This document shows positions 12,257 to 61,610 of a DNA stretch of 64,000 nucleotides, piece after piece. How positions within the stretch are numbered: the stretch's first letter is position 1; each line of letters starts with the position of its first letter. The stretch lies in NCBI RefSeq assembly GCF_002024165.1, contig NZ_MWQN01000004.1, forward strand, positions 62,001 to 126,000, written 5' to 3'. Made by a program: the position numbers and the translations under genes. This stretch comes from Embleya scabrispora (GTDB taxonomy: Bacteria > Actinomycetota > Actinomycetes > Streptomycetales > Streptomycetaceae). Under the pieces are notes generated by a model, which was not told the DNA's origin, ran no database searches, and saw only the letters and a program-made list of their open reading frames with translations.

Positions 12257-15200
12257 ATGCGTTTCGGGGTGTTGGGTCCCTTGCGGGTATGGGCTGCCGA
12301 CGGATCGGAGGCCAGGATCCCCGAGCGGAAGGTGCGCGCCCTGCTTGCGTGTCTCCTGGTGCACCGAGGGCAACCGATCTCCCGGGACCGGCTCGTAGAG
12401 GATCTGTGGGGCGTGAAACTCCCGAACAATCCCTCGGGCATGCTCCAGACGAAGGTGTGGCGGTTGCGGCGGTCCTTGGAGGACGCCGAGCCGGGCGGAC
12501 GCTTGCTGGTGCTCTCGCGCCCGCCGGGGTACGAGGTGCGTGTCGGGCCCGACGCGGTGGACGCCGATCGTTTCCGGGAGACTCTCGACCGCGCCCGGGC
12601 GGCCGCCGATCCGCGGGCCCGAGCCGCTCTGCTGACGGACGCGCTGTCCCTGTGGCGCGGTCCCGCGTTCGCCGACTTCATCGACGAGGACTTCGCGCGC
12701 GGCGCGGCGGCCCTGTTGGAAGAGCAGCGGTTGACCGCAGTCGAGGAGCAGGCGGATGTACGCCTCGAGCTCGGCGCGCACGCCCAAGTCGCCGACGAAC
12801 TCAACGACTTGGTGCACGTCCACCCGCTGCGTGAGCGTATGCGCGCCGCGCACATGCGGGCGCTGTATCTCGCCGGCCGCCAGGATGCGGCGCTTCGCAG
12901 CTACAGGGATCTGCGTGCCCGACTGGCCGAGGAGTTGGGAGTGGATCCGAGTCCGGAGCTGGTGGCCCTGCACCAGGCGATCCTCACCCAGGACCCCTCG
13001 CCGGCGACCCTGCGGGCTCCCGTGCCACGGGCTCCCGCTCCCGTTGCACCGGGCCGCCCGCCGAGCGGCGTGCCGGCCGCGCTGAACGCGCTGATCGGCC
13101 GTGACGAGGCAATCGAGAAGCTGCGCCTGCTGCTGGGCGCGCACCGACTGGTGACGCTCACCGGGCCCGGTGGTGTCGGGAAGACACGGCTCGCGCTGGC
13201 GACCGCCGCGCGGCTCGGCGCCATGTTCCCCGGGGGCGTCCACCTCGCGGAGTTCTCCGCGCTCCACCCGACGTCGGCTTCGCAGGGCAGTGGATGGCCG
13301 GCGGTGACCGAGGAGGTCTGCACCGTCCTCGGGGTGCGGGACGACACCGTGCGTACCGGAGACGCGCCACTGTCGCCGGCCACGCGTATCGCTCACGCAC
13401 TGGGCGACCGCCCGGTCCTGCTGATCCTCGACAACTGCGAGCACGTCGCCGCGCCCGTGGCGGAGTTGGCCGAACAGTTGCTGAAGCGGGCCCCCGCTCT
13501 CCGCATCCTGTGCACCAGCCAGGTGCCGCTCGACATCACCGGCGAGTGGCTGGAGGAGGTTCCTCCGCTGCGGCATCCGGCGTCCGCCGCAGGACTCGGC
13601 ACGGCGGATGTGCGCGGGTTCAGCGCGGTGGAGCTGTTCGTGGCGCGTGCCACGGCCGCCGCGCCGGGATTCGTCCTCGACGACGGCACCCTCGATGCGG
13701 TGGTGTCGATCTGCCGGCGCCTGGACGGCCTTCCCCTGGCCCTCGAGATGGCCGCCAGGCGTGTGCGCGCGCTGGGCGTGCGCGAGTTGGCTGCCCGGCT
13801 GGACGACCGCTTCCGCTTGTTGGCGGTCGGTTCGCGGAGCGCTCCGGCACGGCAGCGCACGCTGAGGGCGGTGATCGACTGGAGTTGGGAACTGCTCGGC
13901 GACCGAGAGCAGGCAGTGCTGCGCCGCCTGGCCGTACACGTCGACGGCTGCACCCTCGCCGCGGCCGAGGAGATCTGCACGGGCAACGGGGTGGACCGCG
14001 CGGAGGTTGTCGACCTCCTGGCCCGGCTGGTGGACTGCTCATTGCTGGTCGTGGCGGACGGCGCGGACGCCACGAAGGGCCCCCGCTACCGAATGACCGA
14101 GTCGGTGGCCGCGTATGCCGCGGAACAGCTCGCCGAATCCGGCGAGTCGGCAGACTGCCACCGCGGGTTCCGCGCCTACTACACGGTGCTGGCCGAGCAG
14201 GCCGAGTCGTATCTGCGAGGTGACAGGCAGCGCGAGTGGCTGCGTCTGCTGGATGCCGAACACGCGAACCTGCGCTCCGCGTTGGACGCCGCCGTACGGG
14301 TCGGGGATGCCGAGTGCGCACTTCGCCTCGTGAACGCCATGGCCTGGTACTGGTGCCTGCGGGGGCGCAACACCGAGGCCCGGCGCTGCCTCACGATGGC
14401 TTTGTCGATCGGGGCCGAGGCCCCCGCTGTTCTGGTCGCGCCTGCGACGGCCTGGCTGGGTGGCGTCGGACTGCGGCTCGGTGGCAGCGCGGACCCGGTC
14501 GACGCGTACTCGGCTGCGCTGCGTGCGTACGACGGGATCGACGCTCCTCTGGGGAAGGCGCGCGCCCAGTGGTTCGTGGCGTCCAACATGTACGGCATCG
14601 GTGATCCGGCGCCGAGCCGGAGTCTGGTCGAATCCGCCCTCGTGGCGTTCCGGTCGCTCGGGGACCGCTGGGGCACGGCGGCAGCGCTGGCCGGCCAGGC
14701 GTTCCACGCGAAGCTGCACGGCGATTTCGGGGCGGTGCGCGGCCGCGGCGAGGAAAGCCTGGCACTGTTCCGGGAACTGGGCGACCAGTGGGGGCAGTTG
14801 CAGGCCATGGTGCCGCTGCAGACACTGGCCGAGGTCACGGGCGACTACGACCGCGCCGAGCGGCTGCACCGCGAAGGGCTGCGCATGGCCGAGGAACTGG
14901 AACTGTGGCCCGAGGTGTCCTTCCAACTCTCCGGCCTGGGACGCATGGCCCTGCTCACACGGGACTACCCGCGCGCCCGGGAGTTGCACGAACGGGCCCG
15001 GCGCGTGGCGATCGCGCAGTCCGACACGTTCGGCGAACAGTACGCCGAGATCGGCCTCGGGATGGGCGCACGCCGCGAGGGCGACCTGGACGCCGCCGAA
15101 GCCCACCTGCGGAACGTCTTGGAACTGCACCGCCGGATGGGGTACGAGCCGGGAATGCCCGCCCTCATCCTGGCCGAACTCGGCTTCGTCGCCGAACTGC

Positions 15201-15574
15201 GGGGCGACCCGAGAACCGCACTGGAGATGCAGCTCGCCGGCCTGTCCGCCGCCCGCGCCGCCGGGGACGCACGCTCGGTGGCTCTTGCCCTGGAGGGCTT
15301 GGCCGGCGCTCAGGTCCTGGCAGGCCACGCCGATCAGGCGGCGCGCCTGTTGGGCGCCGCCGCGGCGGCTCGTCGTTCGGTCGGCACGCCGTTGCCGGAG
15401 GGCGAACGGGACGACGTTGCCCGCATCGAGGCGCGGGCTCGCGATATCGTGGGCGATGCGCGGTTCGACGACGCGTACGGCACTAAAGTGTCGTGGGACG
15501 ACGCGTCGAGGGAGGCACTCCTCGCCGACTCGTCCTCGCCCGGCGGGCCCGTCCCCGGGTCCACCGAGGCGTAG
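12257..15574 (+). CDS. AfsR/SARP-type regulator: DNA-binding + BTAD + NB-ARC + TPR
   Basis: An 1105-aa regulator. An OmpR-type winged helix occupies residues 1-95 (MRFGVLGPLRVWAADG, ISRDRLVEDLWG). The bacterial transcriptional activation domain spans about 100-245 (ELGAHAQVADELNDLVHVHPLRE, ELGVDPSPELVALHQAIL). A proline-rich linker follows, then an AP-ATPase with Walker A GPGGVGKT near residue 302, Walker B-like PVLLILDNCEHV and a winged helix containing DWSWELL. Tetratricopeptide-like helices fill the second half. AfsR-class proteins activate secondary-metabolite genes by recruiting RNA polymerase at direct repeats. The only adjacent divergent gene is an MFS exporter. The ATG at 12257 has no clear Shine-Dalgarno. 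Intact and full length for the family. Confidence 0.93.
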   Translation: MRFGVLGPLRVWAADGSEARIPERKVRALLACLLVHRGQPISRDRLVEDLWGVKLPNNPSGMLQTKVWRLRRSLEDAEPGGRLLVLSRPPGYEVRVGPDAVDADRFRETLDRARAAADPRARAALLTDALSLWRGPAFADFIDEDFARGAAALLEEQRLTAVEEQADVRLELGAHAQVADELNDLVHVHPLRERMRAAHMRALYLAGRQDAALRSYRDLRARLAEELGVDPSPELVALHQAILTQDPSPATLRAPVPRAPAPVAPGRPPSGVPAALNALIGRDEAIEKLRLLLGAHRLVTLTGPGGVGKTRLALATAARLGAMFPGGVHLAEFSALHPTSASQGSGWPAVTEEVCTVLGVRDDTVRTGDAPLSPATRIAHALGDRPVLLILDNCEHVAAPVAELAEQLLKRAPALRILCTSQVPLDITGEWLEEVPPLRHPASAAGLGTADVRGFSAVELFVARATAAAPGFVLDDGTLDAVVSICRRLDGLPLALEMAARRVRALGVRELAARLDDRFRLLAVGSRSAPARQRTLRAVIDWSWELLGDREQAVLRRLAVHVDGCTLAAAEEICTGNGVDRAEVVDLLARLVDCSLLVVADGADATKGPRYRMTESVAAYAAEQLAESGESADCHRGFRAYYTVLAEQAESYLRGDRQREWLRLLDAEHANLRSALDAAVRVGDAECALRLVNAMAWYWCLRGRNTEARRCLTMALSIGAEAPAVLVAPATAWLGGVGLRLGGSADPVDAYSAALRAYDGIDAPLGKARAQWFVASNMYGIGDPAPSRSLVESALVAFRSLGDRWGTAAALAGQAFHAKLHGDFGAVRGRGEESLALFRELGDQWGQLQAMVPLQTLAEVTGDYDRAERLHREGLRMAEELELWPEVSFQLSGLGRMALLTRDYPRARELHERARRVAIAQSDTFGEQYAEIGLGMGARREGDLDAAEAHLRNVLELHRRMGYEPGMPALILAELGFVAELRGDPRTALEMQLAGLSAARAAGDARSVALALEGLAGAQVLAGHADQAARLLGAAAAARRSVGTPLPEGERDDVARIEARARDIVGDARFDDAYGTKVSWDDASREALLADSSSPGGPVPGSTEA

Positions 15575-26064: not shown

Positions 26065-26733
26065 GTGGCTGCCACCGAATTCCTCGACGCAGTCGGTGTG
26101 AATGTGGCCGATCACGTCCGATCCAACGAATTCCTCGCGCTGGCGCGCGAGGGAAAGATCGACACCGAGCGACTGAAGCGCTTCGCCCTCGCTGAATTCC
26201 AGTCGCAGGAGGCGGAGTTCACGGCCTATGGGCTGTTGCTGTCGCGGTACCCGCACGAGGTCCCCGGTGGGTTCTTCTCCTTCGTGGCGCACGAACTCAT
26301 GCAGGCGCGTCATCGCATGGTTTCGGGGGCCGCCCCCGCGTTGGGAATGTCCCCGGACGAGATGCGACGCGCCCCTGTGGCCGGGCCTGTGCGGCGGTTC
26401 ACCGAGTTCATCTCGTGGGTTGCGCTGCACGCGGGAGCAGCGGAAGCCGCGTTGACGGCACGGACGGACTTCACGTTGTGGTGCAACAGTTGCGCGGAAC
26501 TCGCCGACGTACTGCGCGACGCGGACGACGTACCCGAGGAAGTCGTCGCCTACATCGACGCCTACCGCGACAACCCGCCCGAAGTGGCCGACGGCGTACT
26601 TCAGGTCATCGAGCACGGCTTGGCCCAGGGCGAGCCCCGAGACTGGGTGACTCGCAGTGCGGTCCGCATGGATCCGGCCCTGCGTGCTTGGTGGCAGTCC
26701 GCAGCCGTGGGCAGGCAGGAGTCCGGGTGGTGA
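26065..26733 (+). CDS. TenA/PqqC-like (heme-oxygenase-fold) protein, first paralogue
   Basis: A 222-aa helical protein from a GTG at 26065 with Shine-Dalgarno GAAAGAGG; the upstream ATG at 26041 lacks one. The layout resembles TenA/PqqC: helix AEFQSQEAEFTAYGLLLSRY, helix FFSFVAHELMQARHRMV, linker ALGMSPDEMRR, helix WVALHAGAAEAALTARTDFT and a C-terminal block VADGVLQVIEHGLAQGEPRD. It shares these blocks with both halves of the protein at 31555-32967. Members of this fold hydrolyse thiamine fragments, oxidise PQQ precursors, or act as diiron oxygenases. The residues that would ligate metal are not conserved across the three copies, so the reaction is open. First gene of the operon. Confidence 0.72.
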   Translation: MAATEFLDAVGVNVADHVRSNEFLALAREGKIDTERLKRFALAEFQSQEAEFTAYGLLLSRYPHEVPGGFFSFVAHELMQARHRMVSGAAPALGMSPDEMRRAPVAGPVRRFTEFISWVALHAGAAEAALTARTDFTLWCNSCAELADVLRDADDVPEEVVAYIDAYRDNPPEVADGVLQVIEHGLAQGEPRDWVTRSAVRMDPALRAWWQSAAVGRQESGW

Positions 26734-26840
26734 TGCACCTGCCGTGATTCTCCCGACCCTTTGACGGAACTCCCGTCACGGCAACCGTTCTCGTCGAATG
26801 CCCCGATCGGCTCGGCCCCCGGGCGTGGAAGGAGCCTTGT

Positions 26841-28331
26841 GTGGAGGGAACCGAGGGACACGAGACGTTGCGGCAGTGGGAGATCGACGTCTTCCGGACC
26901 CGACTCCGCGCCTCCATAGCCGAACTCGAAGGCGTGTTGCGTCGACCGGAGTTCGGCGCCGCGAGCACCACACTGGGAGGAGAACTGGAACTGTTCCTCG
27001 TCCACGGCGACGGCTCAGCGGCTTTGGTGGGTGATGTCGTGCGCACTGCGGTCGCGGACGAGCGGGTAGCTCCCGAGGTGGACCGCTTCCTCCTCGAAGT
27101 GAACCTGACGCCGGTACGAGCCGCCGGTGCCCCGTTTCGGTCCATGGCCGCCGAGAGCGGCGAAGTTCTGGCCGCGATCGCCGACGCGACTCCGCGATCC
27201 GCGGTCGAGCCGGTGACCATCGGCAGCCTGCCCACGCTGACGTCGGCCGATGTGGGCCCCGGGGCGCTGACCCCGTGCCCCAGGTACAGGGCGCTCGAGC
27301 GGGCCTTCACCGCGGGGCATCCACTCCCCTTCGCCTTCACCCTCGACGGAGCGGAACCCACCACCGTGCGTGCTCGGTCCGTCGCGGTCCAGGGCGTGTC
27401 CTGTTCATGGCAGGTCCATCTGTCGGTCGCTACGGACGCGTTCACTCGTACCTACAACGCCGCCCAACTCGCCACCTCGCCCGTTCTGGCCGCGGCGTGC
27501 AACTCCTCGTTGATGCTGGGCCGGCGATTGTGGCAGGAAACCCGCATCCCCATGTACGAGCACGGCTTCGGCGACCGCTCGGACGGTGCTCATCGGCCGC
27601 CGCGTGTCGCCTTCGGGCCGAGCGGGCGGTGGCTGGTCGGGGGCGTGCGACAACTCTTCGAGAACGCGGTGCGTTGGTACGACGTTCTGGAACCGGTCGT
27701 CTTGGACATCCCACCGCGTCCGGATGCGGCGGACACGGACGTGCCGGGTCTGCGGGAACTGCGTGCCCACATGAGTACGGTGTGGTGGTGGAATCGGCCG
27801 GTCTACGATCCCTCCGGACACGGACACGTACGCATCGAATTTCGCGCGTTGCCCTCCGGTCCGACCACTGTCGACATGGCGGCAAACGGTGCCTTTCTCG
27901 TGGGACTGACCACAGGACTCGCGGCGAAGACCGACGTGGCGACGCTTTTGCCGTTCACGTACGCGCAGGAGAACTTCTACCTCGCGGCGGAGAACGGCTT
28001 GGACGCGCGCCTGTGGTGGCCCTCGACCGTCGGCGAGTCCCCCGCCCGTCGCCGGGCCGCCGATCTGGTGCGCGAGTTGCTGCCGCTCGCCGCCGCCGGC
28101 CTGCGCTCTCTCGGGGTCGACCGGGAGGAATGCGAATCACTGCTCGCGATAATCCACGCACGCGCGACCACCGGCATCACCGGGGCAACCTGGCAACACC
28201 GGACACTCGCGGCGCTCGAGCACGACTTCGGTCGTGCGGACGCCTTGCGAACATTGACCCGCACCTACGCCGACCTGTCGCGCACCGGCGCTCCCGTGCA
28301 CACGTGGCCCGTACCCACCCCGGGCCTGTGA
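26841..28331 (+). CDS. Glutamate-cysteine ligase family 2 (GCS2) carboxylate-amine ligase
   Basis: A 496-aa protein from a GTG at 26841 with Shine-Dalgarno GGAAGGAG. The GCS2/YbdK/EgtA fold is indicated by the acidic metal-binding strand LGGELELFLVHGDG near residue 55, EVNLTP and a later arginine strand HVRIEFRALPSGPTTVDM. The conserved QVHLSVATDAF segment lies in the middle. Such enzymes use ATP and Mg2+ to join a carboxylate to an amine through an acyl phosphate. Position between a TenA-like gene and an amino-acid flavoenzyme argues for amide formation on an amino-acid-derived intermediate rather than glutathione or ergothioneine synthesis. A second family member, of YbdK type, lies at 60.4 kb. 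Confidence 0.82.
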   Translation: MEGTEGHETLRQWEIDVFRTRLRASIAELEGVLRRPEFGAASTTLGGELELFLVHGDGSAALVGDVVRTAVADERVAPEVDRFLLEVNLTPVRAAGAPFRSMAAESGEVLAAIADATPRSAVEPVTIGSLPTLTSADVGPGALTPCPRYRALERAFTAGHPLPFAFTLDGAEPTTVRARSVAVQGVSCSWQVHLSVATDAFTRTYNAAQLATSPVLAAACNSSLMLGRRLWQETRIPMYEHGFGDRSDGAHRPPRVAFGPSGRWLVGGVRQLFENAVRWYDVLEPVVLDIPPRPDAADTDVPGLRELRAHMSTVWWWNRPVYDPSGHGHVRIEFRALPSGPTTVDMAANGAFLVGLTTGLAAKTDVATLLPFTYAQENFYLAAENGLDARLWWPSTVGESPARRRAADLVRELLPLAAAGLRSLGVDREECESLLAIIHARATTGITGATWQHRTLAALEHDFGRADALRTLTRTYADLSRTGAPVHTWPVPTPGL

Positions 28332-28427
28332 GCCGCCGCCCGGCCTCCGGCGGCCATGGATACCGCAAACACCCAGGGAGTTCTCGCTGCCCCGCGTTCG
28401 CCCCCTCGCCCCGCGAATGAGGTACCG

Positions 28428-30161
28428 ATGAGTGCGCAACCCCCGCCGGCCGCCGACCTGCAGGTCGACTTTCCCTTCGACTACGCCGCCCATGTGGGCG
28501 GAGGCCGGCGTATCGGCCGGTTGCCCGACGCGGCCCGAGGTGCGCCGGTGGCGATCGTCGGTGCCGGCGGCAGTGGCCTGGCTGCGGCGTACGAGCTCCT
28601 GCGGGTGGGGTGTCGCCCGCTGCTGTACGAGGCGGAACGCAGCGCCGACGGGCCCGGCGGGGCTCGGTTGGGCGGGCGCATGTTCTCCCGGCGGCTGAAC
28701 AGGGCCGACAGCGCCGTGGTGGAGATGGGCTGCATGCGCTTCCCCGATTCCGCGCGCCTGCTGTGGCAGTACGCAGCGACGTTCGGCTTGCACTGGGAGC
28801 CGTTCCGCGACGACTACGCGGCCGGAACCACGCCGATCACCGTCCTGGAGGTCGACGGGGTACGTCATCTGGTCCGGGAGATCACCGACCTCTATCCTCT
28901 CGACGAGGAGTTACACCGTGCCCATACTCGCTGGTTGGACGCGTTGACCCGCCTGGGCCTGGACCGGATCCGGCGCGACCTGGCCCGGCGCGACCTGGGC
29001 GCCGTGCGTCGACGCTGGCAGGAGGTGGTGCGTCGGTACGAGCAGTGGACCTTCTACCGTTTCCTGCGCGAGGAGGAGGGTGTCGGGCTCACCCACGACC
29101 AGGCCAGGCTGTTGGGCACCGCGGGCGTCGCCCCTGCGGCGTGGGACTGCTTCTTCGGACTGAGCCTGCTGGAGACGCTTCGACTGGTGCTGGCCTCCGA
29201 AGGCAGCACGGCGTACTACCCTCGCGAGGGCATCAGCGCACTCGCCGAGGGTTTCTGGAGCCACCGCACCACGGACCCCGCCGGTCGCTCGGTCAGCCTG
29301 GAAGAGGTCAACGGCGGCGCCCCGCGTCCCGCGGTCACGGCCGTCGAGGTCGACGAGGATCCCGGTCGCGGCGCCGTCGTGCACAGTGCCGACGGGCGCA
29401 GCGAGCATGTGGCCGCCGTCGTGCTGACTCCCCAACTGAATGTACTGGAAACGGCCATAGAGCTGCGTTCCACCCACCCGGGCCGCTCTCCGTTGGGTCC
29501 CAGGCTGTGGCGTGCGGTGCGCCGACTCAGCTATCGACAGTCGTCCAAGACCGCGCTTGTGGTGGACGAACCCTTCTGGAAGGGCACCACCCTCGACGGC
29601 GTCACCCTCACCGACCGCCTGCCGCGCGCCTCCTACACCTTCGACTATGGGCCCCCTCGCGCCCCGGGAGGCCGTACCGCCGTCCTGGACCTGAGCTTTT
29701 CCTGGGGCCGGGATGCCGTCAAGGTGGCGGCCTCCTCCCGACGGGAACGCGTCCGGCTCTTCGTCCGCGAACTGGCCCGCATCCACCCCGAAGCCGCCGA
29801 CGAGCTGCGGCGCCAGGCGGACCGGGCGCAGTCGGTCACCATCTCCTGGGAGAACGAACCCCACTTCCGCGGCCTGTGCCGTTTCTCGGCACCCGGTGAG
29901 CACCCGTACCAGCGAGACCTGTTCAGTCATTTCATGAAGGACTTCACCGGACGCCCCGCCGTACCCGGTGAGCCCGCCAACGCCCTCTTCCTCGCCGGCG
30001 ACGACACCGCCTGGTCCCCCGGCTGGCTCGAACACGCGCTCGGCTCGGGACTCAACGCGGCCTGGGGTGTCGTTCGGCTGTTGGACGGCCGCTCCGAACC
30101 CGGCAATCCGGGCCCGGGTGACATGTGGAACCACCCCGACTTCGCACCCATCGACCTGTGA
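28428..30161 (+). CDS. Flavin monoamine oxidase, tryptophan 2-monooxygenase-like
   Basis: A 577-aa FAD enzyme. An N-terminal extension precedes GAGGSG at residues 45-50 (VAIVGAGGSGLAAAYELL), then the substrate-domain motif VVEMGCMRFPDSARLL. The flavin-closing C-terminal motif ALFLAGDDTAWSPGWLEHAL is followed by GSGLNAAWGVVRLL. The MGxMRFP and SPGWLExAL motifs are those of bacterial tryptophan and phenylalanine 2-monooxygenases and L-amino-acid oxidases, which oxidise an alpha-amino acid to imino acid and, in the monooxygenases, decarboxylate it to the amide. The ATG at 28428 with GAGG upstream is preferred over 28356. It is central to the operon, so the pathway probably starts from an amino acid. 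Confidence 0.87.
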   Translation: MSAQPPPAADLQVDFPFDYAAHVGGGRRIGRLPDAARGAPVAIVGAGGSGLAAAYELLRVGCRPLLYEAERSADGPGGARLGGRMFSRRLNRADSAVVEMGCMRFPDSARLLWQYAATFGLHWEPFRDDYAAGTTPITVLEVDGVRHLVREITDLYPLDEELHRAHTRWLDALTRLGLDRIRRDLARRDLGAVRRRWQEVVRRYEQWTFYRFLREEEGVGLTHDQARLLGTAGVAPAAWDCFFGLSLLETLRLVLASEGSTAYYPREGISALAEGFWSHRTTDPAGRSVSLEEVNGGAPRPAVTAVEVDEDPGRGAVVHSADGRSEHVAAVVLTPQLNVLETAIELRSTHPGRSPLGPRLWRAVRRLSYRQSSKTALVVDEPFWKGTTLDGVTLTDRLPRASYTFDYGPPRAPGGRTAVLDLSFSWGRDAVKVAASSRRERVRLFVRELARIHPEAADELRRQADRAQSVTISWENEPHFRGLCRFSAPGEHPYQRDLFSHFMKDFTGRPAVPGEPANALFLAGDDTAWSPGWLEHALGSGLNAAWGVVRLLDGRSEPGNPGPGDMWNHPDFAPIDL

Positions 30162-30270
30162 GGAAGAGCCCGGCGCCCGGGCCGAGAACCCGGTACCGCG
30201 CGGCGGCGCCCGACGTCCCGCGGGTACCCGTCGTACCCGCGAATGGATGCCGACCCGAAGGACGGTGAAC

Positions 30271-31497
30271 ATGCGCCCCTCCGACCAGCGAGGGATCCTA
30301 CTGCGCCCGGACGCGGTCTGGGACGCGATCGCTTCCGCGCCCGTGAGCGGTTTGGACGTTCTGCTCCGCGACCACCGAGTGGTCGAGATCGCTCCCGACC
30401 TCGCGCCGGGGGACGCCGAGGTGGTGGACCTGCCCGGGTGCACGGTGATGCCCGGTTTCATCGACTGCCACGTCCACCTCCTCGACGAGGGCGCCGAGAT
30501 GTCGTCGGCCGCCTACCAAACGCTCACCGGCATACGGCCTTTGCGGCAACTGCTGGCCAACGGATTCACCACCGTGCGCGACCTCGGCAGCGCCCATCAA
30601 GCCCTCAACGTCGCACTCCGACAAGCCGTCGAGGACGGTTTGATCGTAGGCCCACGCGTCCTGGCCGCCCCGAACATCCTCTCCCCGCGCTCGGGCCACG
30701 GCGACAAGTCGCCGGACCTCGCGCAGCGTTACGGCACCCGGATCGGCGCGCTCGCGGACGGGATCGAGGAGGTGCGCCGCGCCGTACGCGACCAAGCCCA
30801 GGCCGGCGCGGACTGGATCAAGTTCGCCGGCGGCGGCGGCTTCTCCTCACCCGTCAGCCAACCCACCAGCACCGCCTACTCCCAAGCCGAAATGGACGCA
30901 CTCGTCGCCACCGCCGACGACATGCTGCTTCCCTGCGCGACCCACGCCCTGCACGACGAGGCCGTCGTTCGGGCCGTCAGGGCCGGAGTGCGCAGCGTCG
31001 AGCACGCCTGCCTGGCCACCGATCCCACATACGAGTTGATGACCGATGCCGGCACCTACCTGGTGCCCACCCAATACGTCCAGCGGTACTTCGTCGACAA
31101 CCTCGACGACGACGACTTCTGGAGCGAACGACCCGCGCACGCGCGCGAGGCGTACCGCGTCCACGCCGCGCGGCTGCGTGAAGGGTTGTTGCGTCCCGCG
31201 CGCACCCGGGTCAAGGTCGCGTTCGGCACCGACGCCGGGATGTTCCCGCACGCCGACAACTGGCGCGAGTTCCCCGCCATGCTCTCCCACGGCTTCACCG
31301 CCCTGCGCGCCCTGCGCGCCGCGACCACCGTCGCCGCCGACCTGCTCGATCGCGGCGACCTGGGCAGGCTCGCCCCCGGCTCCACAGCCGACGTCATCGC
31401 CCTGCACGGCGACCCGTTCGTGGACATCCAAGCCACCGGCCGCGTCCGCTACGTCGTCAAGGACGGACGGTCCTACCCCCCGGGCTCCCTGGCCTGA
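30271..31497 (+). CDS. Metal-dependent amidohydrolase (imidazolonepropionase/prolidase-like)
   Basis: A 408-aa amidohydrolase-superfamily enzyme. Metal ligands are His67 and His69 (GFIDCHVHLLD), a candidate carboxylated Lys184 (DWIKFAGGGG), the His225/His228 region (CATHALHD), His245 (SVEHAC), and an Asp near residue 320 (FGTDAGMFPH). The N-terminal and C-terminal beta-sandwich halves are complete (GCTVMPG; GSTADVIALHGDPF). Closest relatives by motif are imidazolonepropionase-like and Xaa-Pro dipeptidase-like hydrolases of cyclic amides or dipeptides. Follows the flavoenzyme by 109 bp and precedes the tandem TenA-like gene by 57 bp. Confidence 0.87.
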   Translation: MRPSDQRGILLRPDAVWDAIASAPVSGLDVLLRDHRVVEIAPDLAPGDAEVVDLPGCTVMPGFIDCHVHLLDEGAEMSSAAYQTLTGIRPLRQLLANGFTTVRDLGSAHQALNVALRQAVEDGLIVGPRVLAAPNILSPRSGHGDKSPDLAQRYGTRIGALADGIEEVRRAVRDQAQAGADWIKFAGGGGFSSPVSQPTSTAYSQAEMDALVATADDMLLPCATHALHDEAVVRAVRAGVRSVEHACLATDPTYELMTDAGTYLVPTQYVQRYFVDNLDDDDFWSERPAHAREAYRVHAARLREGLLRPARTRVKVAFGTDAGMFPHADNWREFPAMLSHGFTALRALRAATTVAADLLDRGDLGRLAPGSTADVIALHGDPFVDIQATGRVRYVVKDGRSYPPGSLA

Positions 31498-31554
31498 TCC
31501 CACGCCCCATGGTCGGCGGGTTTCCCGAGTGACCGAACCGGAGGTGATCATCTC

Positions 31555-32967
31555 GTGCGAACACGTAGGGCACGCCCGGTGCCGCTCACCTCGTTCCTCG
31601 ACGCCGTTCCCATCGGCGGCGGCGAGAAGGTGGTGTCGCAGGACGTACTCTTCCTGGCTCGGACCGGGCGTATGGACGCCGAGGTATGCCGTCGGCTCGT
31701 CATAGCCGAGTACCAAACCAGGGAGGCCGAAGCCCGGGCGTACGCCGCACTGTTGCGCTGTCACCGGCAGGAGGTGCCACAGCGGTTCTTCGCGTACGCC
31801 CACGGCCGATCGACCCACCACCGTCACCGGCTGCTCACCTCGGCCGCTCCCGCCCTGTGCCTGACCCCGGCAGACCTTCGCGGCGCCTCGACCACTTTGG
31901 CGGTGCGGCACCTGGACGCCTTCCTGGCGTGCGTCGCGCGCCGCGCCGGTCCCGGAGAGGCGGCGCTGACCATCCGTACCGGCGCCGCCCTGTGGAGCCG
32001 GTCCTGTGCGATGTTGGCCGAGACACTGGACGGACGCCCGGACGTCCCGGCCGCGTTCGTCGCTCACCTGAACGCGCATCGGGACAACTGCGCACCTACG
32101 GCCGACGGCGTCCTGCGGGTCATCGAATACGGCCTTGCCGCGGGAGAGCCCAGGGAGAACATCACCCGCAGTGCCTTGATGATCGAGTCCCTGTGGCGCG
32201 CGTGGTGGCGCTCCGTCGCCGGCGAAACGGGTGCGCGAGACAGTCCCGACCCTGCACACACCGGCGGCGAAACACCGCCGTCGCAACGCACACATCCACC
32301 CTCGAGGAGAGACCGGATGAATCCCGAACAATTGGTGGAAGCCATGAAGCCGGACGTCGAACGATTCGTCCGCGGCAACGAAATGGTGGAACGCGCGCTG
32401 GCCAAGCAGGTGCACGGCGACCAGTTCAAGCGTCTCCTGCTCGCGGAGTACCAGTGCCAGGAGGCCGAGCTCTCCTCGTACGGCCAGTTGGTGGCCCGCC
32501 ACCGGCACGAGGACCCGGCCCGACTCTTTTCCTTCATTCTCCACACGATCGCCGAAGCCCGCCGTCTCCTGCGCGAGGGCGCGCCTTCGGTCGGCATCGC
32601 GGACCGGCGCATCCCGGCGGTGCCGGTCGACCAGGGTCTGTACCGGGTCGTGCGCGACCTGTCCTGGCCGGGCATGCACGCCGGCGCCGCGGAAGCGGCG
32701 CTCTACCTCCACACGGACCTCTCCACGTGGTGCACGCTCTTCTCGCGCATCGCGGACGCGGCGGAGGATCTACCCGACGTGCCCGGTCCGGTGATCGCCT
32801 ACATGCGGTCGTGGGGCGACCGTCCGCCGCCCGAGGTCGCCGAGGGCACCTTGACCGTTCTCGAATACGGCCTCTCACAGGGCGAGGAACCCGACCGCAT
32901 CCTGCACACCGCCCGCCAACTCGGTGCCCTCCTGGACGGCTACTGGAATTACGTCGTCGGCGATTGA
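31555..32967 (+). CDS. Tandem TenA/PqqC-like protein (second and third paralogues in one frame)
   Basis: One uninterrupted 470-aa frame from a GTG at 31555 with a near-consensus Shine-Dalgarno GGAGGTGATC. Residues 1-225 form one TenA-like unit (VIAEYQTREAEARAYAALL, RRAGPGEAALTIRTGAALWS, ADGVLRVIEYGLAAGEPREN). A 30-residue Pro/Thr/Ser linker follows, then a second unit from about residue 255 (LLAEYQCQEAELSSYGQLVA, MHAGAAEAALYLHTDLSTWC, AEGTLTVLEYGLSQGEEPDR). The product could be a fused two-domain protein. Alternatively the second unit starts independently at the ATG at 32317, which has its own GAGGAG. The third unit lost some histidines present in the 26-kb paralogue, which suggests specialised or structural roles. 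Confidence 0.75.
   Translation: MRTRRARPVPLTSFLDAVPIGGGEKVVSQDVLFLARTGRMDAEVCRRLVIAEYQTREAEARAYAALLRCHRQEVPQRFFAYAHGRSTHHRHRLLTSAAPALCLTPADLRGASTTLAVRHLDAFLACVARRAGPGEAALTIRTGAALWSRSCAMLAETLDGRPDVPAAFVAHLNAHRDNCAPTADGVLRVIEYGLAAGEPRENITRSALMIESLWRAWWRSVAGETGARDSPDPAHTGGETPPSQRTHPPSRRDRMNPEQLVEAMKPDVERFVRGNEMVERALAKQVHGDQFKRLLLAEYQCQEAELSSYGQLVARHRHEDPARLFSFILHTIAEARRLLREGAPSVGIADRRIPAVPVDQGLYRVVRDLSWPGMHAGAAEAALYLHTDLSTWCTLFSRIADAAEDLPDVPGPVIAYMRSWGDRPPPEVAEGTLTVLEYGLSQGEEPDRILHTARQLGALLDGYWNYVVGD
32304..32319 (+). promoter_or_regulatory. Internal ribosome-binding site and candidate start of third TenA-like unit
   Basis: GAGGAG at 32304-32309 lies 7 nt before an ATG at 32317 (MNPEQLVEAMKPDV), exactly where the second domain begins. 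It decides whether two separate proteins or a fusion plus a short form are made. The upstream frame has no stop before it. Confidence 0.65.
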
Positions 32968-33033
32968 AGAGCGGTAACGGCGACGGGGCGCCCGACCGCC
33001 CGCGCCATATCGCGTGGGTACGGCGGGCCCGGC

Positions 33034-34113
33034 GTGCGCCGACCGGACACGCGTACCGACGCCGTCCGGCGCCACGACCCCAGGTGGCGCGACTTCACCA
33101 GCGACAACTGTTCCGGCGCGCACCCGGAGGTCCTCGCGGCTCTGTCTCTTGCCAACGGAGGTCACCAGAACGCCTATGGAAAGGACGATTACACCGCCCA
33201 CCTCGACGCGCTCTTCCGTCGCCACTTCGGGCCGCGTGCCCAGGTCTTCCCCGTCTTCAACGGCACCGGTGCGAACGTCATCGCGCTGCAGGCGGTCACC
33301 GATCGCCGGGGCGCGGTCGTGTGTGCCGATCAGGCACACCTGAACGAGGACGAGGGAGGCGCGCCGGAGAGAGTGGCCGGATTGAAGCTGCTCTCCGTGC
33401 CGTGCACGCACGGCAGGCTCGATCCGCGAGCCGTCAGGAGCGCCGTGGAGACCCGGGGTGACGTACAACGGGCCCAACCGCAGGTCGTCTCGCTCACCCA
33501 GGCCACGGAACTGGGCACCTGCTACCGACCGGACGAGATCCGTGCCCTGTCCGCGTACGCCCACGCGCAGGGCCTGGCACTGCACATGGACGGCGCCCGC
33601 CTGGCCAACGCGGCCGCCTTCCTGGGCGTTCCGCTGCGAACCTGCACGACGGACGCGGGAGTGGACATCCTGTCCTTCGGCGGGACCAAGAACGGCCTGC
33701 TCTTCGGTGAGTGCGTCGTGGTCCTGGACCCCTCCCGGGTCTCCGGGACCCCCTACCTGCGCAAGCAATCCCTGCAGCTGGCCTCCAAAATGCGATTCCT
33801 CTCGGCACAGTTCGAGGCTCTGCTCGCAGGCGACCTGTGGTGGCGCAACGCCTCCAGAGCCAACGCCATGGCCGCTCGTCTCGGGCAGTGTCTCGCCCGC
33901 ATCGACGGCGTGGTGGTGACCCGGCCCGTGGAAGCCAACGCGGTGTTCGTCAAGCTGCCGCACGACGTCATCGGGCGCTTGCGCGAGACCTACACCTTCT
34001 ACCCCAACGACGAGGAATCCGGGGAGGTCCGACTCATGTGCTCGTTCGACACCACCGAGAGTGACGTGGAGCGCTTCGGCACCGCCACGGCACAGGAGAT
34101 GACCCGACGATGA
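33034..34113 (+). CDS. L-threonine aldolase-like PLP enzyme (beta-eliminating lyase family)
   Basis: A 359-aa fold-type I PLP enzyme. Landmarks are FTSDNCSGAHPEVLAAL at the N-terminus, NGTGANVIAL, the stacking His102 in AHLNEDEGGAPE, Asp186 and Arg189 in HMDGARLANAAAF, and the Schiff-base Lys219 in SFGGTKNGLLFG. Low-specificity threonine aldolases cleave beta-hydroxy-alpha-amino acids to glycine plus an aldehyde, or run in reverse to build beta-hydroxy amino acids. As the last gene of the operon (66 bp after the TenA-like gene) it may form or cleave a beta-hydroxy amino acid. A GTG start at 33034 is assumed. Confidence 0.88.
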   Translation: MRRPDTRTDAVRRHDPRWRDFTSDNCSGAHPEVLAALSLANGGHQNAYGKDDYTAHLDALFRRHFGPRAQVFPVFNGTGANVIALQAVTDRRGAVVCADQAHLNEDEGGAPERVAGLKLLSVPCTHGRLDPRAVRSAVETRGDVQRAQPQVVSLTQATELGTCYRPDEIRALSAYAHAQGLALHMDGARLANAAAFLGVPLRTCTTDAGVDILSFGGTKNGLLFGECVVVLDPSRVSGTPYLRKQSLQLASKMRFLSAQFEALLAGDLWWRNASRANAMAARLGQCLARIDGVVVTRPVEANAVFVKLPHDVIGRLRETYTFYPNDEESGEVRLMCSFDTTESDVERFGTATAQEMTRR

Positions 34114-60416: not shown

Positions 60417-61610
60417 TCACGTCACGTTTCCGCCCGCGGGATGGGGCACGTCGCCGACTGCCCGGCACGTCCGGGGCGACAGGGCGGGTACCCGCGCGGT
60501 GTGGTCGGCCAGGTCCTCGACCACGTCCCGCAGGCACCTCGCCCGGGCGAACGCGGATCGTTGGCGCCCGGCGCCGCCGCCTTCGCGGGCAAGCCGTTCC
60601 AACACGGTCCCCACCCACGCGGACTCCTCCCGCCCCGCGAGCGCGGGACGGGCCCTCGCCAGGAGTCGGCGGGCCATGTCCGCCGCGGGCACGATCCGGC
60701 CGCTGTCGAGATCGACGCCGTGTCCGGGCCAACCGTCGCGCGCACCGCGCCAGTACGCCGCCCGCAGCCACGCCTCCTCCACCGTCGGCCCCGGGTCGCC
60801 GCGTCGTACGCGCTCCAGGGCGTTCGCCACCAACCCCCGTACCAGCACGGCGAACGCGACCGTCTCCTCGAGTCCGGCGTTGACGTCCATCACCCGGATC
60901 TCCACCGTGGACAGCCGCTCGCACGGCCGTACGTCCCAGAACAGGTTGTGCTCGTCCAGCGCGGCTCCGCTGTCCAGAAGCCGGCCCACCAGGCGGTCGT
61001 AGTCGCTCGCGTCGCGAAAGAACGGCGGCGGCCCGGCGATCGGCCATCGGCTCAGGGCCACGGCCCGCCAACTCGCGTACCCGCTGTCGCGGCCGGCCCG
61101 GAACGGGGAGTTCGCGGCGATCGCCACCAGGGTGGGCAGCCACGGCCGCAGATGGTTGCTCACCAACACCGCCGCCTCACGGTCGGGGACCGCGACGTGC
61201 GTCTGCAACGCGCAGAACGCGAAACCGTCCTGCAGCCCCCGATAGGCCTCGACGCCGGCCGCGTAGCGCGGGTCCTCTCGCAGCGGAACCGGGCTGCGGG
61301 CGCCCAGTACCGGGGTGCCCGACGCCACCACCCGAAGATCCTCCGAGGCGGCGGCCCTCGCCACGGCCGCGCGCACCCGCGCCAGATGGTCCCTGAGTTC
61401 GCCCGTCTCCGAGCACGGCGGCGTCTTGCCCTCGATCTGATACTCGCTGAACTCGCCGGAGACCAGATCGCCCACCTCGATCCGGGCCCGCCGCAACACC
61501 CGCGAGCCCGCCTCCCGTACCGCCCCGTCACCGGCGTCGACCAGGAAGTACTCCTCCTCGACGCCCAGCGTCGGCAACTGCCCCCGCCCGTCCGATCCCC
61601 ACACCGACAC
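60417..61610 (-). CDS. YbdK-type carboxylate-amine ligase (GCS2 family)
   Basis: About 397 aa. The canonical GCS2 opening LPTLGVEEEYFLVDAGDGAV carries the metal-binding glutamates. SGEFSEYQIEGKTPPCSETG, ALQTHVAVPDREAAVLVSNH, IAANSPFRAGRDSGYASWRA and STVEIRVMDVNAGLEETVAF complete the fold. YbdK has weak glutamate-cysteine ligase activity in vitro; physiological substrates vary. I place the start at a GTG at 61610, because it puts the conserved LGVEEE eleven residues from the N-terminus; ATGs at 61649-61652 are alternatives. It shares a family, but not close motifs, with the operon ligase at 26841. Confidence 0.88.
   Translation of the reverse strand: MSVWGSDGRGQLPTLGVEEEYFLVDAGDGAVREAGSRVLRRARIEVGDLVSGEFSEYQIEGKTPPCSETGELRDHLARVRAAVARAAASEDLRVVASGTPVLGARSPVPLREDPRYAAGVEAYRGLQDGFAFCALQTHVAVPDREAAVLVSNHLRPWLPTLVAIAANSPFRAGRDSGYASWRAVALSRWPIAGPPPFFRDASDYDRLVGRLLDSGAALDEHNLFWDVRPCERLSTVEIRVMDVNAGLEETVAFAVLVRGLVANALERVRRGDPGPTVEEAWLRAAYWRGARDGWPGHGVDLDSGRIVPAADMARRLLARARPALAGREESAWVGTVLERLAREGGGAGRQRSAFARARCLRDVVEDLADHTARVPALSPRTCRAVGDVPHPAGGNVT

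Follow-up and report, generated by a model that had tools for sequence, protein, structure and literature searches.

The 64,000-nucleotide stretch of Embleya scabrispora DNA analyzed here (contig NZ_MWQN01000004.1, positions 62,001 to 126,000; hereafter the window) encodes a six-gene operon. Its core, a flavin amine oxidase and a binuclear amidohydrolase, stays together in other actinomycetes, accompanied by a changing set of partners that includes a carboxylate-amine ligase, an aldolase, and small TenA-like proteins. We tentatively suggest that this is a compact operon of specialized metabolism, a channelled ligate-oxidise-deprotect module that may build or remodel an amino-acid-derived small molecule. 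The linkage of the genes is what the comparisons establish; the order of the steps and their chemistry are inferred.

Organization and conservation of the operon

The six genes lie co-directionally on the plus strand at 26065-34113 and are separated by gaps of 107, 96, 109, 57, and 66 bp in order, in agreement with the first-pass annotation, which had described six co-directional genes with gaps of 57-109 bp. Their features, in window positions, are as follows:

26065-26733, +: TenA1, gene 1 of the operon; GTG start; 222 aa; putative distant TenA-superfamily protein
26841-28331, +: divergent GCS2-like ATP-dependent carboxylate-amine ligase; 496 aa; partial NCBIfam match, profile-profile 96.2%
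28428-30161, +: flavin amine oxidase of the L-amino-acid oxidase/monooxygenase type (flavoenzyme); 577 aa; core enzyme
30271-31497, +: binuclear amidohydrolase of the dipeptidase/ochratoxin-hydrolase group; 408 aa; core enzyme
31555-32967, +: double TenA-like open reading frame (TenA2, linker, and TenA3)
31555-32220, +: TenA2, first half of the double frame; TenA1 paralogue (46% identity)
32221-32316, +: in-frame linker between TenA2 and TenA3; low G+C content at third codon positions (0.594); possible ribosome-binding stretch (gaggag) before ATG 32317
32317-32967, +: TenA3, second half of the double frame; orthologue (71-74%) of the amidohydrolase-fused domain in loci L009-L014
33034-34113, +: L-threonine-aldolase/GntG-type enzyme dependent on pyridoxal 5′-phosphate (PLP); 359 aa; accessory

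A collection of 84,980 species was searched with TenA1 by a method limited to close relatives. Fifty-two stretches matched, nine of which are relatives: eight Streptomyces loci, with TenA1 72-77% identical to that of the window, and Saccharothrix algeriensis (54%). The order of the first four genes (TenA1-ligase-flavoenzyme-amidohydrolase) is repeated in nine Streptomyces-type loci (L007-L014 and L056); the S. algeriensis locus (L015) has the order TenA1-flavoenzyme-amidohydrolase and no ligase. The earlier proposal that one operon is conserved elsewhere in actinomycetes holds, with the core recurring as a unit at these loci.

Fourteen operon-type flavoenzyme genes were examined (from the window, L007-L015, a second copy in L008, L056 of genome G147, L109 of G905, and L110 of G334), and gene presence or absence at the 12 non-window loci was rechecked with tblastn. 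An amidohydrolase gene adjoins all 14. The ligase lies upstream of 11 (absent at the L008 second copy, L015, and L110), and TenA1 is likewise found at 11 (absent at the L008 second copy, L109, and L110), a count biased by the discovery of nine of these loci with TenA1 as query; in a flavoenzyme-led scan of 392 genomes (eight genes in seven genomes), TenA1 lies beside 5/8 and the amidohydrolase beside 8/8. TenA3 is present at 7/14 (the window and L009-L014) and the aldolase at 5/14 (the window, L009, L010, L012, and L014); TenA2 was found in the window and in none of the other 12 loci examined. The core is the flavoenzyme and the amidohydrolase. The GCS2-like ligase, TenA1, and the aldolase are frequent but dispensable, the aldolase and ligase being accessory members.

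No locus other than the window has all six genes; L009, L010, L012, and L014 have five of the six kinds, TenA3 being present there as a fusion. Co-occurrence in other actinomycetes is true of the core pair (14/14) and not of the complete set, and the independent scattering of homologues that was to count against an operon was not seen for the core pair. The three TenA-like units listed in the first-pass annotation are present in the window but are not general; the operons at other loci carry one or two such units, and any second unit is part of the amidohydrolase frame.

Several reading frames are fused. TenA3 and the amidohydrolase form one frame, joined by a Pro/Ala/Ser-rich linker, in each of the six non-window loci with TenA3 (L009, L010, L011, L012, L013, and L014), and in S. 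algeriensis the flavoenzyme and amidohydrolase occupy a single frame of 1,022-1,032 aa. In the window, the amidohydrolase frame closes with a separate stop codon, and TenA3 is joined to TenA2 instead; given the internal ATG at 32317 and its ribosome-binding-like stretch, TenA3 may also be produced as a free protein. An ATGA overlap joins the ligase stop to the flavoenzyme start in seven relatives (L007, L009, L010, L011, L012, L014, and L056). In each of the six genes compared between the window and L009, differences are most frequent at the third codon position (TenA1, 0.18/0.11/0.47 for the three positions); TenA2, which has no orthologue there, was left out. The kept order, fused frames, and third-position differences are more than chance would give, and the six genes are a real operon.

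The locus is rare and patchily distributed. At a threshold of E up to 1e-110, flavoenzyme orthologues occur in 7 of the 392 genomes of the genus set, taken as Streptomyces (eight genes). Their identity to the window protein is 64-71%; that of the next group is at most 42%. These scans score the best few candidates per genome (three in the flavoenzyme genus scan and two in the reductase scan described below). Among 200 family genomes, 103 have some flavoenzyme match at E up to 1e-80, with an orthologue only in the window's own genome and G147; a match of some kind was seen in 15 of 396 phylum genomes, with an orthologue only in the window's own (best other, 1.3e-88). A TenA-like relative is found in 19 of 394 family genomes and a TenA1 orthologue in three (the source genome, G147, and G222), each of which has the operon. 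Flanking genes are common only to L009/L010/L012, to L011/L014, and, for one gene, to L008/L054, so the operon sits in varied surroundings.

Three loci carry variants of the core. A second flavoenzyme-amidohydrolase pair adjoins the operon in S. fulvorobeus and directly follows a short-chain dehydrogenase gene (L008:15974-19926). At L110:6702-11730 the pair stands without ligase or TenA genes and follows a gene for a thiamine-diphosphate enzyme. A frame shift splits the amidohydrolase gene of S. monomycini (L007:13998-15232), as either a pseudogene or a draft error.

The promoter and terminator scan was uninformative (no promoter-like sites, with 0.3 expected, and two terminator-like sites inside genes, with 3.3 expected), and when the 300 bp 5′ of TenA1 were aligned across loci, the ribosome-binding stretch was the only common motif by eye. 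A tRNA search found none, and a tandem-repeat search gave five short rows. A large SARP/BTAD-type regulator with a TPR match is encoded about 10.5 kb upstream of the operon (12257-15574, +).

The core and accessory enzymes

The flavoenzyme has a Pfam Amino_oxidase domain (1.8e-41). Its nearest solved protein is an L-amino acid oxidase/monooxygenase (L-AAO/MOG; 3we0, 1.4e-84, residues 12-568), followed by Trp 2-monooxygenase (5.9e-34) and then by animal-type L-amino acid oxidases; the earlier label "Trp-monooxygenase-like" names the second-best relative and misses the nearest. Residue positions were taken from an alignment of 13 sequences to L-AAO/MOG with an inferred 20-residue numbering offset. 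According to a study of L-AAO/MOG (PMC5832979), Arg102 and Trp516 hold the amino acid, Tyr416 is a carboxylate contact, Asp238 holds the basic side chain and accounts for Lys/Orn/Arg specificity, and Cys254 tunes oxidase versus monooxygenase activity; the Trp and Phe enzymes have Gly at the Ala515 position, and aromatic-specific enzymes have Phe at the Trp235 position.

Arg102, Trp235, Trp418, and Trp516 are kept in all 13 operon flavoenzymes. The Asp238 position is Phe and the Ala515 position Gly throughout, the latter as in the Trp and Phe enzymes. The Phe473 position, part of the aromatic cage, is Cys in seven and Ser in six; the Cys254 position is Glu in 12 and Gln in one; and the Tyr416 position is Phe in 11 and Tyr in two. 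With these pocket changes, lysine is unlikely to be the substrate, and one with a larger side chain is plausible. The retention of Trp235 weighs against a simple "aromatic-type" pocket. The product could be either an imino acid or an amide.

The amidohydrolase (Amidohydro_1, 5.4e-40) is closest among solved proteins to ochratoxin-hydrolysing amidohydrolases and Xaa-Pro/Arg dipeptidases (best 2.2e-56). Its metal ligands (HxH, Lys, two His, and Asp; H67, H69, K184, H225, H245, and D321) are invariant in 12 sequences. The protein scores below the cut-off of the NCBIfam Xaa-Pro dipeptidase model NF051886 (286 versus 500 bits).

The putative ligase is a divergent protein with the conserved motifs G-x-E-L-E, Q-x-H-L, and R-I-E-F-R. 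It has a partial NCBIfam match (4.9e-7; 28.9 bits against a cut-off of 409), and a profile-profile comparison by hhalign with 14 canonical GCS2 proteins gives a probability of 96.2% over 346 columns. Members of a paralogous 500-aa family in the same genomes are 34-36% identical to it over most of its length. Counting against the assignment, none of nine ligase members matches Pfam GCS2 (PF04107) at E up to 1, and comparison with a single-sequence profile gives 7.5%; a PDB sequence search with the family returned nothing usable. The profile comparison supports membership in the GCS2 superfamily. The divergent 500-aa paralogues (L169, L172, L173, and L174) are barely seen by Pfam, with L172 over its cut-off. 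The window also encodes a canonical GCS2 protein (60417-61610, -; PF04107, 4.4e-39) that is unlike the operon ligase, and the source genome has seven PF04107 matches.

The aldolase has a Beta_elim_lyase domain (2.6e-50) and the motif FGGTKNG, the lysine of which we take to be the PLP-lysine. Its nearest solved relatives are L-threonine aldolases (9.1e-81), and it matches the GntG model NF041359 below cut-off (3.3e-23; 82.4 versus 230 bits).

The TenA-like family and its A-T-reductase neighbors

A Pfam search at E up to 0.1 assigned no family to the TenA-like frames of the window or to the GCS2-like protein. The TenA-like units of the window also have no PDB match and no NCBIfam match over its cut-off, and PDB sequence searches with TenA1, the TenA family, and a genomic paralogue (L017) gave nothing usable. 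The family is uncatalogued: neither a Pfam model nor an NCBIfam model above its cut-off covers its window members.

Two profiles were built, a narrow one from the operon family (A1, 17 members) and a broader one (A6, 21 members) that itself contains a bridging gene (G857:C1116, L134). The bridge is matched by the family profile (5.3e-17) and passes the PF03070 threshold (32.4 bits against a cut-off of 22). PF03070 signal is found in 1/17 narrow-family members (E 0.023) and in 6/21 broader members (best 3.1e-9). The window units are at best distant TenA relatives, linked by sequence through this gene. A TenA profile match of 99.9% was discounted, as L134 stood on both sides of the comparison, which was repeated with a profile lacking it (A7). 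Thiaminase/TenA membership of the window units was likewise not accepted, given the negative Pfam result and the presence of L134 on both sides of the strong match.

The operon family keeps E44, Q46, E49, E51, Y55, E65, R82, E127, and E190. The catalytic residues of TenA, which we take to be Cys135 and Glu205, are not seen at the aligned places, in what is a remote alignment.

Broader TenA-like relatives adjoin a protein similar to nonribosomal peptide synthetases (NRPSs) with AMP-binding, PP-binding, and NAD_binding_4 (reductase) domains, here called the adenylation-thiolation-reductase (A-T-reductase). The source genome encodes one in a cluster 20 kb past the window end (G000:C4:146125-150475). 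Where the A-T-reductase shares at least 50% identity with that of the source genome, a TenA-like frame lies within flanks of about 1.5 kb in 11/11 loci (L112-L120, L150, and L151; L114 and L120 see one TenA-like gene between two reductases); at 39-40% identity, the count is 0/2. The source-genome cluster (L016:3508-10485) combines the A-T-reductase with TenA-like, amine oxidase, and aminotransferase genes. In 6/6 loci examined (L016, L048, L049, L050, with two overlapping frames, L052, and L054), the reductase has the L016 amine oxidase or a relative of it as a neighbor; an aminotransferase is present in L016 and L052, and HisA-like and Zn-dehydrogenase genes in L048, L049, and L054. The clusters related to that of L016 (L048, L049, L050, L052, and L054) form a family of interest in its own right.

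An A-T-reductase gene borders the operon in L011 and L014. Among the 392 genomes, seven have the flavoenzyme, six the reductase, and three both (G222, G857, and G905; hypergeometric 6.9e-5, ignoring shared ancestry). The operon and the A-T-reductase module are associated and not dependent, because they co-occur in three genomes, yet the reductase is absent from four of eight flavoenzyme-bearing genomes (G147, G842, G1041, and G334). The neighborhoods tie the TenA-like family to enzymes that would make reactive amino-carbonyl species. It is possible, if doubtful, that the TenA-like proteins without an invariant histidine represent a new family, of enzymes or of carriers, that deals with reactive alpha-imino or alpha-amino-carbonyl intermediates in both the operon and the A-T-reductase clusters. 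If so, two unlike pathways would share an undescribed intermediate-handling step leading to a new class of amino-acid-derived metabolite.

Possible chemistry and relation to known systems

In the module that we suggest, the GCS2-like ligase would join a carboxylate to an amine, and the resulting glutamyl-type amide would protect an amino acid or add bulk to it. The flavoenzyme, which has lost the pocket residue for a basic side chain, would then oxidise the alpha-carbon of this amino acid to give an imino acid or, with decarboxylation, an amide, and the amidohydrolase would cut the N-acyl bond. A TenA-like domain could take the freed reactive amine or imine and hydrolyse, rearrange, or shield it; the aldolase, where present, may be an optional first or last step in which a glycine unit is added or removed. 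The fusions would stop an unstable intermediate from escaping. Evidence in favor comes from the kept order, the adjacency of the core pair in 14/14 cases, the fusions and ATGA overlaps, the kinship of the flavoenzyme and amidohydrolase, the superfamily of the ligase, the A-T-reductase neighbors, and the rarity of the locus.

Several observations weigh against this suggestion. The ligase and TenA1 are each missing at 3/14 flavoenzyme genes, so the core step can do without either of them, and the idea of protection is weakened accordingly. The amidohydrolase could also act ahead of the flavoenzyme. The TenA catalytic residues appear to be lost, so the TenA reaction is not implied. The pocket evidence is mixed, with Trp235 kept in 13/13 where aromatic-specific enzymes have Phe, and Tyr416 mostly replaced by Phe. 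No transporter or regulator is kept beside the operon in the flanks compared across loci, and four of the eight flavoenzyme-bearing genomes searched are without the reductase.

A catabolic or detoxifying operon is a somewhat unlikely explanation. The amidohydrolase would act on a peptide or N-acyl conjugate and release an amino acid for the flavoenzyme to degrade, the aldolase would cleave beta-hydroxy amino acids, and the TenA-like proteins would handle ammonia-releasing intermediates. The dipeptidases and ochratoxin-hydrolysing enzymes nearest to the amidohydrolase are consistent with such a role, as is L110, which has the core pair without ligase or TenA; relatives of the flavoenzyme oxidise free amino acids, according to PMC5832979. 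The ligase at 11/14 flavoenzyme genes and the rarity of the operon (7/392) fit biosynthesis better, and the NRPS-like reductase association also argues against catabolism.

A two-step amide route without protection is unlikely. Here the flavoenzyme would turn an amino acid into a primary amide that the amidohydrolase converts to the acid, the ligase and TenA-like proteins belonging to another branch. The closeness of the flavoenzyme to the amide-forming L-AAO/MOG and Trp 2-monooxygenase points this way, as does the single flavoenzyme-amidohydrolase frame of L015. However, the named solved relatives of the amidohydrolase presumably act on peptides or N-acyl amino acids, not primary amides, and with Glu (12/13) or Gln (1/13) at the Cys254 position, amide formation is unproven.

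It is very improbable that the oxidative step is carried out by the TenA-like units as diiron (haem-oxygenase-like) oxidases, one of the roles raised in the first-pass annotation. The two groups presumably belong to a common broad helical superfamily, and 1/21 members has a weak PF14518 match (E 0.0015). The narrow profile does slightly better against PF14518 proteins (13.5%) than against two TenA/PqqC-type proteins (3%), but the broader one, which contains the bridge, favors TenA (68.8% versus 27.6%), and the PF14518 matches span only part of the proteins. Because none of the 17 narrow or 21 broader members shows an invariant histidine, against H84/E138/H169/D173/H176 in PF14518 homologues, the units are probably not diiron oxidases. 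A chance neighborhood of unrelated genes, to which only the occasional absence of members could be credited, is refuted because gene order, fused frames, and ATGA overlaps are conserved.

If the ligate-oxidise-deprotect module is correct, it would be a hitherto undescribed pathway whose signature is simple: a flavoenzyme, an amidohydrolase, and a TenA-like protein. Common cluster finders may miss it, because the operon itself has no polyketide synthase, NRPS, or terpene gene. The natural fusions predict which enzymes pass intermediates to one another, and the TenA-like family emerges as a recurrent partner of A-T-reductase NRPS-like enzymes. The first-pass annotation knew of no pathway with this combination, and no published cluster with the gene set appeared among the matches listed when open-access full texts were searched with gene-name combinations; most subscription journals lie outside that scope, so an earlier report is possible. 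The enzyme superfamilies are known; the gene combination, the fusions, and the partners of the TenA-like family look new.

Known systems resemble parts of the operon. The YlmB amidohydrolase and TenA work together in thiamin salvage, where an amide-cutting enzyme passes an amine to a TenA protein, a pairing like that proposed here; YlmB is presumably of another hydrolase family, and no thiamin gene was recognized among the operon genes. TenA/thiaminase II (PF03070) is distantly related through L134 and similar in length, but the window units have no Pfam match, the residues corresponding to Cys135 and Glu205 are not seen, and the partners differ. The mgo/pvf-type clusters also place an A-T-reductase beside a small helical protein, presumably haem-oxygenase-like; the partner here is TenA-like without an invariant histidine, and the operon itself has no such NRPS.

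The aldolase shares a fold family with the GntG PLP aldolase of the guanitoxin pathway and falls under its cut-off. The amidohydrolase is homologous over most of its length to the ochratoxin-hydrolysing and Xaa-Pro/Arg dipeptidase group (9l6p, 2qs8, 3mtw, and 4c5y) and shares the binuclear ligands, but it often carries a C-terminal TenA-like domain and scores under the Xaa-Pro dipeptidase cut-off. The flavoenzyme is homologous over nearly its full length to L-AAO/MOG of Pseudomonas sp. AIU 813 (3we0 and 5yb6-8), with equivalents of Arg102, Trp235, Trp418, and Trp516; it differs at the Asp238, Ala515, Phe473, Cys254, and, mostly, Tyr416 positions, in being a member of an operon, and in its fusion to the amidohydrolase in one species.

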